Of a stretch of 33,815 nucleotides of DNA, positions 9,302 to 33,687 are shown in pieces. Source of the stretch: a virus. The notes under the pieces are model-generated. The model made no database searches. It was not told the origin of the DNA and saw only the letters and a program-made list of their open reading frames with translations. Position numbers and translations under genes: made by a program. The stretch spans positions 1 to 33,815 of the IMG/VR virus record IMGVR_UViG_3300038701_001851, one strand, 5' to 3'. Each line of letters begins with the position of its first letter. The first letter of the stretch is position 1.

Positions 9302-9561
9302 TGGCCAGCCTGAACCAGATCGCCAATGACCTCATTGCGCAGTCCAACCTGATCACGAAGCGCGGTTTCAATATCGCGAACATGCGCCAGTCCCTGAGCC
9401 GCGCCGCATACGCGCTGCGTCAGGCCGCAACTGACCTTGAGGAACGCGACCGCACGATCAGGGAACTGAAGGCCAAGTGCGCTGATCTCGAACGCGCTGC
9501 CGAGGACGAAACGCTGCGCTTTGAGCGGTATCGCAACGGGGACGATCTGCATGCAAACTAG
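9301..9561 (+). CDS. Hypothetical coiled-coil protein (86 aa)
   Basis: A small helical protein. Residues 30-78 have heptad spacing (LSRAAYALRQAATDLEERDR, then ELKAKCADLERAAEDETLRF), predicting a coiled coil. ATG at 9301 overlaps the previous stop, and its own stop lies inside the start of the terminase gene (overlap of 11 bases). Genes of this kind are often small packaging accessory factors, but no family is recognised. Confidence 0.65.
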   Translation: MASLNQIANDLIAQSNLITKRGFNIANMRQSLSRAAYALRQAATDLEERDRTIRELKAKCADLERAAEDETLRFERYRNGDDLHAN

Positions 9562-11194
9562 CGCCGTTCTTTCCCGCAATCCTGACGAGCTGCCAAAGGA
9601 CCTGCCGCGCGGGGCCGAGGTGCCCGACGATCTCGACCCGCTGGCCGAGGGCATCCTGATGCGCCACCAGGCGGAATGGCTGGAGGACACATCCGACCTC
9701 AAGATCGCCGAGAAGGGACGCCGCACGGGCATCACGTTCGCCGAGGCGCTGGACGACACGCTGATCGCCGCGGCCAAGCGCAGCGCGGGCGGGCAGAACG
9801 TGTTCTATATCGGCGACACGAAGGACAAGGGCCGCGAGTTCATCGGCTATGTCGCCAAGTTCGCCCAGACCATCGCCGGGGAACTGCACCCGATCGAGGA
9901 GTTCATCTTCAAGGACGAGCGCGAGGACGGCACGTCGAAGGACATCACCGCCTTCCGGATCACCTTCCGGTCGGGGTTCCGGGTTGAGGCGCTGTCCTCG
10001 AACCCGGCCAACATCCGGGGTCTTCAGGGTGTGGTGGTGATCGACGAGGCGGCGTTCCACAAGGATGTCCGCCAAGTGATCGACGCGGTGAACGCCCTGC
10101 TGATCTGGGGCGGCAAGGTGCGCGTGATCTCGACCCATAACGGGCGGCTCAATCCGTTCAACGAGCTGATCCGAGAGGCGCTGGCGGGCAAGAACCCGTT
10201 CAAGGTGCATCACATCCCGTTCGGGGCTGCGGTGAAGAACGGCCTCTTCAAGCGCGTCTGTCTGATGAAGGGCACCGAGTGGACGCAGGAGGCCGAGGAT
10301 GCCTGGGAAGCGCAGATCCGGGGGTCCTACGGGGCCCGCACCGCGCAGATGCAACAGGAGCTCGACGCGATCCCGTCCGACATGGAAGGGGCGGCGCTGA
10401 CCCGCGTCCAGATCGAGAGCGTGATGCGCAAGGGCATCCCGTTCCTGCGCTGGACCGCCGAGGATGCGCTCAAGGACGCGCCCGAGGACGAGCGCAAACG
10501 CCGGGTTAAAGACTGGTGTGAAGAACACTTGAAGCCGGTGTTGAAGGGCCTGAACGAGAACCGCAAGCATTTCGTGGGCGAGGACTTTGCCCGCTCGGGT
10601 GACGTGACCGACATCGTAATCTTCGAGGAGACCGAGCTGCTGGTCCGCGAGAGCAAGCTGATCCTCGAATTGCGCAACATGCCCTTCGAGGTGCAGCGCG
10701 ACGTGCTCTTCTACCTGCTCGACCGGGTGCCGAACTTCACCAAGGGCGCGATGGACAAGACCGGCAACGGCGCCTACCTCGCCGAGGTCGCTGCACAGCG
10801 CTATGGCAGCCGGATCGTCGAGGTGGCGCTGTCGCGCCAATGGTACGAGCTGGAGATGCCGCCCTATATCGAGGCGTTCGGCGACAAGACGATCATCCTG
10901 CCCGAACATGCCGACATCCTGAGCGATCACCAGGCACTGCAATACGTGGACGGGCTTATCCGGGTGCCCAAGGATTTCCGGTTCAAGGGATCGGACGGGT
11001 TCAACCGCCACGGCGACAGCGCGGTGGCCTGCGCGCTGGCGTGGTTCGCCAGCCGCCAGGACTATGCCGAATACGATTACCGGGGCGTATCGCGCGGCGG
11101 GCAGTCGGGCAATTCCGACCTGCCGCCCGAGGAGGACGACACCCGCAACTGGTTCCGCCCGCCGCTGGGCGCGGGTTTGAGGGGGTTCATGTGA
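9551..11194 (+). CDS. Large terminase subunit (Mu gp28-like)
   Basis: A 547-residue packaging motor, almost the length of Mu gp28. The ATPase half shows a variant Walker A (EKGRRTGIT, residues 54-62) and Walker B (GVVVIDEAAF, about 159-168), then the coupling segment VRVISTHNGR. The nuclease half has the acidic motif GEDFARSGDVTDIVIFEE around residues 342-359 and a later conserved DGFNRHGDSAVACALAWFA. It translocates DNA into proheads and cuts it headful-wise. The start at ATG 9551 gives the family-typical N-terminus; its stop overlaps the next gene as TGATG. Confidence 0.93.
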   Translation: MQTSAVLSRNPDELPKDLPRGAEVPDDLDPLAEGILMRHQAEWLEDTSDLKIAEKGRRTGITFAEALDDTLIAAAKRSAGGQNVFYIGDTKDKGREFIGYVAKFAQTIAGELHPIEEFIFKDEREDGTSKDITAFRITFRSGFRVEALSSNPANIRGLQGVVVIDEAAFHKDVRQVIDAVNALLIWGGKVRVISTHNGRLNPFNELIREALAGKNPFKVHHIPFGAAVKNGLFKRVCLMKGTEWTQEAEDAWEAQIRGSYGARTAQMQQELDAIPSDMEGAALTRVQIESVMRKGIPFLRWTAEDALKDAPEDERKRRVKDWCEEHLKPVLKGLNENRKHFVGEDFARSGDVTDIVIFEETELLVRESKLILELRNMPFEVQRDVLFYLLDRVPNFTKGAMDKTGNGAYLAEVAAQRYGSRIVEVALSRQWYELEMPPYIEAFGDKTIILPEHADILSDHQALQYVDGLIRVPKDFRFKGSDGFNRHGDSAVACALAWFASRQDYAEYDYRGVSRGGQSGNSDLPPEEDDTRNWFRPPLGAGLRGFM

Positions 11195-32510: not shown

Positions 32511-32606
32511 ACACGGGGTCTGGTTCTGACGCAACCCCCGCCGACCCGGAACGGTTCAAGGCCGCCCTCTGCCCGATCGAGCGTGGCCAGTGTTGGACCG
32601 GAACCC

Positions 32607-32813
32607 TTGAGAAAAGATGAACTGCGTTGTGCGAATTGTTCGAGACTGCTAATGAAACTGGAGCCCGGCGCGATCTGCGGCGGCATCGAGATCAAGTGCC
32701 CGCGATGCCGGGCGATCAACACCCTGAGGCCCACACAGAGCCCTTTGCCAGAGCGTCCGGAACGCGACGGAATTGAGGTTTCATGTGGCTGTTCATCCCC
32801 CCACAAGACATGA
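32607..32813 (+). CDS. com: Com-like zinc-finger translational regulator
   Basis: A 68-residue protein with the Com signature: LRCANCSRLLMKLE, an insert, then IEIKCPRCRAINTL, giving two CxxC pairs that bind zinc. In Mu, Com binds the mom mRNA and opens its hidden ribosome site. Here the downstream partner is a cytosine methyltransferase, not Mom, and the genes overlap (32785-32813), so the same regulation may apply. The TTG start at 32607 gives the family-typical short N-terminus; GTG at 32583 would add eight residues. It is slightly less GC-rich than the tail genes. Confidence 0.8.
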   Translation: MRKDELRCANCSRLLMKLEPGAICGGIEIKCPRCRAINTLRPTQSPLPERPERDGIEVSCGCSSPHKT

Positions 32814-33664
32814 CGACATTCGCGGCATCAGCCTTTGCACCGGTGTCGGAGGACTGGATCTCGGATTGCATCTCGCGATGCCCCGATATCGAACTGTTTG
32901 CTTTGTCGAGCGAAACGCTCACGCCGCGGCGGCTCTCGTGGCGCGGATGGCAGACGCGTCCCTGGCTGCGGCTCCTGTGTGGGACGATCTGCGATCCTTC
33001 GACGGCCGACCGTGGCGCGGTCGCGTTCATATCGTCTCTGCCGGTTATCCATGCCAGCCATTCACCCTGTCAGGTCTTCGCAAAGGCGAGAACGACCCCC
33101 GCCACCTATGGCCGGAGGTCGCGCGCATCGTCAGCGAGGTCGCCCCGCCCGTCGTGTTCTTCGAGAACGTCCCCGGCCATCTCACCCTCGGCTTCCAGGA
33201 CGTCGCCCGAGACCTTCAGGGAATGGGCTACCGGGTTGCAGCGCGCGTCGTATCAGCGGCGGAAGTCGGCGGGACGCATACCCGCGAAAGGATGTTCATT
33301 CTGGGCCACGCCGACGTTCAAGGGGTCGGGCAATCGCGCCTGCATCCAGCTGAGCCCGTCGGGGATTGCCTTCCGGAACGATCAGAACCAGACCGGCAGC
33401 CAGATGGGGCTCAAGAACCAGGTGGTGTCCTGGACGCTCCTGCGGCAGCTGCTCGAGGCGGCCGGGTGGAGGGGCAAGCGCTTCCGCTCTTCCCACCCGA
33501 ACCGGGTTGTCTTGCTGAATGGCGAGAAACACTCCGAACGCGGCCTGACCTTGAACCCGGACTTCACCGATTGGCTGATGGGCTGGCCGGTGGGCTGGAC
33601 CGAACCTCTGAAGCCGGTAACGGGGTGGTCCCACTGGCTGCGGCAAGGGCGTTCGTCGATTTGA
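32783..33664 (+). CDS. Overlapping gene in the +2 frame of the methyltransferase (293 aa)
   Basis: A second long frame covers almost the whole methyltransferase gene. ATG 32783 shares the GAGG site with GTG 32785. The N-terminal hundred residues (MWLFIPPQDMTTF; LSWRGWQTRPWLRLLCGTIC, DPSTADRGAVAFISSL) and the C-terminal hundred (FKGSGNRACIQLSPSGIAFR; LTLNPDFTDWLMGWPVGWTE) resemble a protein family I recall from other phages, while the middle is low-complexity R/S/P/T. Codon use in the 3' third favours this frame over the methyltransferase. It could be a true overprinted protein or an alternative-frame remnant. The function is unknown. Confidence 0.55.
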   Translation: MWLFIPPQDMTTFAASAFAPVSEDWISDCISRCPDIELFALSSETLTPRRLSWRGWQTRPWLRLLCGTICDPSTADRGAVAFISSLPVIHASHSPCQVFAKARTTPATYGRRSRASSARSPRPSCSSRTSPAISPSASRTSPETFREWATGLQRASYQRRKSAGRIPAKGCSFWATPTFKGSGNRACIQLSPSGIAFRNDQNQTGSQMGLKNQVVSWTLLRQLLEAAGWRGKRFRSSHPNRVVLLNGEKHSERGLTLNPDFTDWLMGWPVGWTEPLKPVTGWSHWLRQGRSSI

Positions 33665-33687
33665 ATGAGGTGTTAATGTGTCGTTAA
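32785..33687 (+). CDS. DNA (cytosine-5) methyltransferase
   Basis: A 300-residue enzyme that would methylate C5 of cytosine, probably to protect phage DNA from restriction. Motifs run in order: I, GISLCTGVGGLDLGL; IV, GYPCQPFTLSG with the catalytic cysteine; VI, FFENVPGH; VIII, THTRERMFIL; and X, GNGVVPLAAARAF. The target recognition region between VIII and X is short. The GTG start at 32785 follows GAGG (32775-32778); TTG 32773 is possible. Third-position GC is 29 of 30 codons at 33115-33204 but only 12 of 30 at 33481-33570 (hand counts), where the overlapping frame has 24 of 30. Confidence 0.88.
   Translation: MAVHPPTRHDDIRGISLCTGVGGLDLGLHLAMPRYRTVCFVERNAHAAAALVARMADASLAAAPVWDDLRSFDGRPWRGRVHIVSAGYPCQPFTLSGLRKGENDPRHLWPEVARIVSEVAPPVVFFENVPGHLTLGFQDVARDLQGMGYRVAARVVSAAEVGGTHTRERMFILGHADVQGVGQSRLHPAEPVGDCLPERSEPDRQPDGAQEPGGVLDAPAAAARGGRVEGQALPLFPPEPGCLAEWRETLRTRPDLEPGLHRLADGLAGGLDRTSEAGNGVVPLAAARAFVDLNEVLMCR

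Follow-up and report, generated by a model that had tools for sequence, protein, structure and literature searches.

The C5 cytosine methyltransferase (MTase) M.EcoHK31I consists of two polypeptides, as does M.EaeI. The beta chain of M.EcoHK31I has 176 residues and is embedded, and work from 1995 reportedly located the small gene inside the large gene, in another reading frame. In phage Mu, com sits directly upstream of, and overlaps, the DNA-modification gene mom, the translation of which is controlled by Com. The large chain of M.EcoHK31I carries motifs I-VIII and X and was also assigned the target-recognition domain (TRD), and motif IX resides in the small polypeptide; M.AquI alpha/beta is a further natural two-polypeptide C5 MTase (PMC3404938). 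In addition, an out-of-frame HNH endonuclease has been described in phage methylases for ShiLan (PMC11855218).

Here, we analyzed positions 1 to 33,815 of the IMG/VR virus record IMGVR_UViG_3300038701_001851, and this whole stretch of 33,815 nt is referred to as the window. It harbors a C5 MTase gene (alpha) that shares its DNA with a second open reading frame (beta). We read the locus as an alpha/beta two-polypeptide C5 cytosine methyltransferase similar to M.EcoHK31I, with near-coincident starts and an upstream com, and give this reading a probability of about 85%. The two-frame arrangement is conserved in well over a hundred related phage and prophage genes, and has drawn hardly any notice, with the exception of one bacterial enzyme described in the 1990s. 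A search of the open-access literature found no paper on a widespread overprinted class, most subscription journals and REBASE being outside its scope. DNA phages rarely have long genes that code in two frames of the same strand; in this case, the pair of products is apparently made up of complementary halves of one enzyme.

Organization of the locus

According to the ORF list, the MTase frame is uninterrupted from 32773 (TTG) or 32785 (GTG) up to 33687, and an intact ATG-initiated ORF of 293 residues occupies 32783-33664 in the frame 1 nt ahead of it. This frame, termed +2 in an earlier sequence-only reading, is the +1 frame, hereafter the beta frame. Both the 293 open codons over the same DNA and the MTase motifs I, IV, VI, VIII and X noted in that reading were confirmed, the latter by a PF00145 match and invariant motif residues (Table 1).

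Table 1. Features of the overprinted methyltransferase locus in the window
Feature	Position	Strand	Evidence or remark
Com-like gene (Mu Com zinc ribbon)	32583..32813	+	PF10122 E 4e-9; 3' end overlaps alpha and beta start codons
Beta, overprinted ORF (293 aa), putative subunit with TRD and motif IX	32783..33664	+	Stop depletion, phrog_1008, phrog_27243
Double start ATGTG	32783..32787	+	ATG (32783), beta start; GTG (32785), alpha start
Alpha, C5 MTase catalytic chain	32785..33687; alternative TTG start 32773	+	PF00145 E 9e-29, phrog_363 E 7e-55
Triple-frame segment, 29 nt (com end, alpha start, beta start)	32785..32813	+	ORF coordinates
Alpha motifs	I 32830-32853; IV 33043-33063; VI 33163-33171; VIII around 33283-33291; X 33616-33654	+	
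TRD stretch, constrained in beta frame	33271..33541	+	Substitution classes, beta dN/dS about 0.1
Motif IX in beta frame, LNPDFTDWLMGWPVGW	33551..33598	+	Invariant residues; shared with single-chain actinophage MTases, which have it in frame

As the com-like gene ends inside the start region of alpha and beta, the segment 32785-32813 lies in three open frames. Among 93 relatives examined, 61 share the start pattern xTGTGG, in which the xTG of beta is followed 2 nt later by the GTG of alpha, and most of the remaining ones have GTGAATG, with the alpha start 4 nt upstream of the beta start. Shine-Dalgarno matches of at least four bases were found in 79 of the 93, compared to 52 in shuffles. A com-like ORF lies directly upstream in 46 of the 93, and in most of these com-bearing relatives it overlaps the pair by 31 nt, as in the window.

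Elsewhere in the window, at 9458-11194, two antiparallel long ORFs cover nearly the same DNA (9521-11194 on the plus strand, 557 aa; 9458-11011 on the minus strand, 517 aa), which is probably a GC-rich shadow.

The beta frame is kept free of stop codons

Relatives of the MTase were collected from IMG/VR and GTDB contigs using the MTase frame as the query, together with relatives from a scan with the beta protein. Removal of those above 85% amino acid identity left 123 genes, and in almost all of them 240 to 430 codons could be compared. The expected number of stops was derived by shuffling synonymous codons within each gene. The beta frames of these C5 MTase genes contain 62 stops against 424.8 (SD 14.5) expected, whereas the other same-strand frame (the third frame) contains 1252 against 1326. 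Most of the 62 are at the extreme 3' end, where the beta ORF finishes: by gene decile, there are 5 stops against 75 expected in the first, none against about 208 in deciles 2-7, and a normal count only in the last. Phylogenetic non-independence inflates the z-scores of this depletion and leaves the near-absence of stops unaffected. An assembly error was rejected as well, the arrangement being present in over a hundred separate loci.

The neighboring genes of the window were sought in the relatives as a control and none was shared, so canonical C5 MTases were taken instead. In 18 C5 MTases that belong to the same bacterial family and have motif IX in frame, we counted 215 stops against 198 expected, that is, no depletion, which indicates that C5 MTases are not inherently open in the +1 frame.

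These counts bear on whether the beta frame might be a mere shadow that GC-rich DNA left open by chance, its apparent homologues being themselves mis-annotated shadow frames. The window alone would allow it, as 2 stops against 3.3 expected are not significant (p 0.25) and both are the ORF's own end or beyond; the caution that length by itself is weak evidence in GC-rich DNA was thus well placed. In some public records, too, it is the beta frame and not the MTase that is annotated. However, the depletion over 123 genes with a third frame near expectation, its absence from the control MTases, the open beta frames of relatives with only 45-57% GC, and a beta dN/dS of about 0.1 over 33271-33541 refute this explanation with near certainty. 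Stop codons in close relatives, which had been named as grounds for giving up the second gene, are essentially absent, and the overprinting of the MTase gene by a second gene is borne out.

The two frames are constrained in different parts of the gene

To map constraint, substitutions were sorted by their effect in both frames over 1313 pairs of 62-90% identity, which are not independent of each other. From 32821 to 33271 the MTase frame dominates: changes that are silent in the MTase and alter beta reach d 0.40-0.58, and MTase-changing substitutions are rare. From 33271 to 33541 the pattern is reversed, with d 0.27-0.47 for changes that alter the MTase and are silent in beta, versus 0.13 for the opposite class, in line with the beta dN/dS given above. 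Both frames are held from 33541 to 33685. When distant pairs were set against codon-shuffled copies, the beta frame likewise showed an excess conservation over the third frame, which is clear from near 33196.

The 5' half of the beta frame is stop-free, yet its residues are conserved no better than those of the third frame and mostly follow the MTase sequence. An exception is the start segment MWLxxP, of which W2 and P6 are invariant in 52 sequences, and there the MTase frame is more variable. The sequence-only reading had both ends of the gene ruled by the beta frame; this holds for the 3' part, with the reversal at about 33271, and fails for the 5' end. Likewise, free synonymous variation of the MTase frame, proposed there as counter-evidence if seen across both ends, is present at the 5' end only. 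The third-position GC counts behind that proposal were right to within one codon, with small differences in two of the four counts: our recount gave 29/30 (33115-33204), 16/30 (32824-32913; earlier 17) and 12/30 (33481-33570) for the MTase frame, and 25/30 (33481-33570; earlier 24) for the beta frame.

A switch of the constrained frame near 33196-33271 is also what programmed frameshifting would produce, if ribosomes left the alpha frame after motif VIII and continued in the beta frame through the TRD and motif IX to make one fused enzyme, and actinophages do have single-chain fusions of the same modules. Such a mechanism has no need of an open beta frame upstream, yet deciles 2-5 have 0 stops against 167 expected, and a conserved start and MWLxxP stand at the head of the beta frame. 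Moreover, motif X lies in frame 0 downstream of motif IX, so that a second shift would be required. We consider frameshifting very improbable.

Methyltransferase motifs are divided between alpha and beta

Alpha is a C5 cytosine DNA methyltransferase by the presence of motifs I, IV, VI, VIII and X in one chain. Its alignment has invariant P89, C90 and Q91 (motif IV, PCQ), E127, N128 and V129 (motif VI, ENV), R167, R169, G278 and N279. The PF00145 match spans motifs I-VIII only, and motif IX is absent from frame 0. Alpha therefore does not unite motif IX and TRD in one chain, and its TRD stretch is under weak constraint, with disorder predicted. In the AF2 model, the catalytic domain has pLDDT above 85 and the motif X helices above 90, in contrast to values below 40 for residues 181-231, which sit where the TRD is expected. 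In a structural comparison by Foldseek, about 170 residues of alpha, corresponding roughly to the large domain, aligned to M.HaeIII and M.HhaI.

The missing motif is found in beta, where LNPDFTDWLMGWPVGW is placed just 5' of motif X, with invariant P259, M266 and G267 and near-invariant N258, F261, W268 and P269. It is without the canonical R-E, and motif X follows it after a shorter interval, 8.7 codon equivalents at the nucleotide level compared to 16 residues in canonical enzymes. The window's beta matches phrog_1008 (E 1e-11) and phrog_27243 (E 9e-7). Annotated as 'DNA methyltransferase', phrog_1008 matches all 52 of the 52 aligned beta proteins, and also the C-termini of the MTases of phages Papez (E 5e-30), A1SD1 (E 2e-31) and CheeseTouch (E 6e-43). 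This link, together with motif IX, makes beta best read as a TRD/motif IX subunit of the enzyme of alpha. An hhalign comparison between the C-termini of beta and those of canonical C5 enzymes was not significant, and the phrog_1008 link is used in its stead. Single beta proteins gave few tblastn matches in phage records, owing to the fast divergence of this frame. When a beta profile was searched against 200 genomes of one phylum, it was found in 12, and each of the 18 loci newly extracted from these 12 genomes has a C5 MTase with beta in its +1 frame, so that no beta was standalone.

Beta might instead be an independent overprinted protein outside the enzyme, for example a regulator or an anti-restriction factor. 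A Pfam search of the beta proteins gave nothing convincing, a PDB search with their profile no meaningful match, and the N-terminal half is without a known counterpart, all of which would suit such a protein. In the extracted loci, beta was nevertheless found only alongside an alpha, and it has a motif IX/TRD-like module that is missing from alpha and lies in frame in single-chain enzymes, so we regard independence as improbable. AF2 predicted no confident fold for beta alone (pLDDT 48), which would be consistent with an obligate subunit and proves nothing. The sequence-only reading had supposed an enzyme and an unrelated protein made from one locus. The conserved dual frames speak for two products, and we infer that both frames are translated; the supposed lack of relation was not borne out, as beta has the motif IX and TRD stretch that the MTase frame misses.

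Single-chain relatives and spread of the arrangement

In Mycobacterium phages Papez, A1SD1 and KyMonks1A, motif IX is in frame with motif X in a single chain, and Gordonia phage CheeseTouch and one Streptomyces plasmid have the same layout. The +1 frames of these single-chain MTases are not kept open, with a summed 34 stops against 38 expected. Viral sequences scanned for single-chain relatives yielded one near-identical locus only. Upstream of the in-frame motif IX, single-chain actinophage MTases (loci L235, L259 and L262) have a beta-like stretch, LPTPLARDSKG..., in the +1 frame, which looks as if it came from fusion of an overprinted ancestor.

The overprinted arrangement is present in one Acidovorax phage, one Synechococcus phage, Salmonella phage S9-5, Acinetobacter phage ABMM1, Vibrio phage 1.236.O and Pseudomonas phage PS-1, as well as one Salmonella plasmid and alphaproteobacterial plasmids. 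The length of beta varies: it is full-length in the clade of the window, and internal with 236 aa in Paenibacillus phage HB10c2. The annotated 'cytosine-specific methyltransferase' of Acidovorax phage Alfacinha3 (locus L185, 1501-2667) is the beta frame, and in Synechococcus phage Ssp-JY39 (locus L190, 1002-2117) the beta frame alone is annotated, as hypothetical.

Two other forms were observed. One bacterial genome has a short remnant (locus L200, 1410-1658) that retains only the 3' ends of both frames, of 75 and 73 aa, still in register. A distinct MTase class of the YNEIDPFAAQWLRNLI type (locus L194, 1052-2447 on the minus strand; locus L232, 984-2016) is overprinted in the same offset; the motif reads NPDLSRWLMGLP, and the start is internal.

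Overprinted two-chain C5 MTases quite likely constitute a large and mostly unrecognized class, distributed among phages and prophages whose hosts are alpha- and gammaproteobacteria, cyanobacteria, actinobacteria and Firmicutes; M.EcoHK31I would be a special shortened case of this class. The catalytic and specificity chains would be locked base by base over the full length of the gene, so that any change of specificity must suit the catalytic frame. Many genes that bear a single annotation as 'DNA cytosine methyltransferase' may then be half annotated, sometimes in the wrong frame. Recoding the codons of one frame for cloning or synthesis would destroy the other chain, and the evolution of a specificity module overprinted on a catalytic domain becomes testable.

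Proposed assembly and comparison with known systems

We propose that alpha, in frame 0, would form the SAM-binding catalytic large domain plus motif X, and beta, in frame +1, would supply the target-recognition stretch and motif IX. Both chains would be produced from one mRNA by ribosomes initiating at start codons offset by 2 nt, after which alpha and beta would assemble into a heterodimer, a single active enzyme methylating phage, and perhaps host, DNA against restriction. By analogy with the action of Mu Com on mom, the com product may control the translation of alpha and beta by gating access to both starts.

The two-chain enzyme is favored by the reversal of constraint at about 33271, with an alpha that lacks motif IX and is predicted to be disordered at the TRD; by the beta stop depletion, absent from the 18 MTases with in-frame motif IX; by phrog_1008, which joins beta to single-chain C-termini, and the pairing of all 18 extracted beta loci with an alpha; and by the conserved double start, the invariant W2 and P6 of beta and the precedent of M.EcoHK31I (PMC3404938). 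Counted against it are the beta fold, the hhalign result, the missing R-E, the short IX-X spacing and the weak 5' constraint on beta.

Among known systems, the single-chain actinophage MTases (Papez gp46 and CheeseTouch gp88) have the same module order, with EWLMGLPxGW before motif X; they differ in that their TRD/IX module is in frame with the catalytic domain and their +1 frame is not kept open. As in ShiLan, a phage methylase gene has a second protein encoded out of frame, but the ShiLan case is a mobile insertion with a homing endonuclease that is no part of the enzyme. Similar to com-mom of Mu, a Com zinc ribbon gene sits just upstream of, and overlaps, a modification gene, which here is a C5 MTase pair rather than mom. 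M.AquI differs in being split within the variable region, with motifs IX and X in its small chain, whereas motif X here is on the catalytic chain.

The second chain is encoded in an overlapping frame, as is said of M.EcoHK31I, and here the overlap covers 32785-33664 and is conserved in 123 genes. Unlike the embedded chain of M.EcoHK31I, beta (293 aa) extends over the whole of the alpha gene, has its start 2 nt ahead of that of alpha and follows com. By the published description, the division of motifs is alike, with IX on the second polypeptide and I-VIII plus X on the first. The TRD of M.EcoHK31I is placed in the large chain (PMC3404938), whereas the constraint at the present locus puts it in beta, which calls the TRD location in M.EcoHK31I into question.
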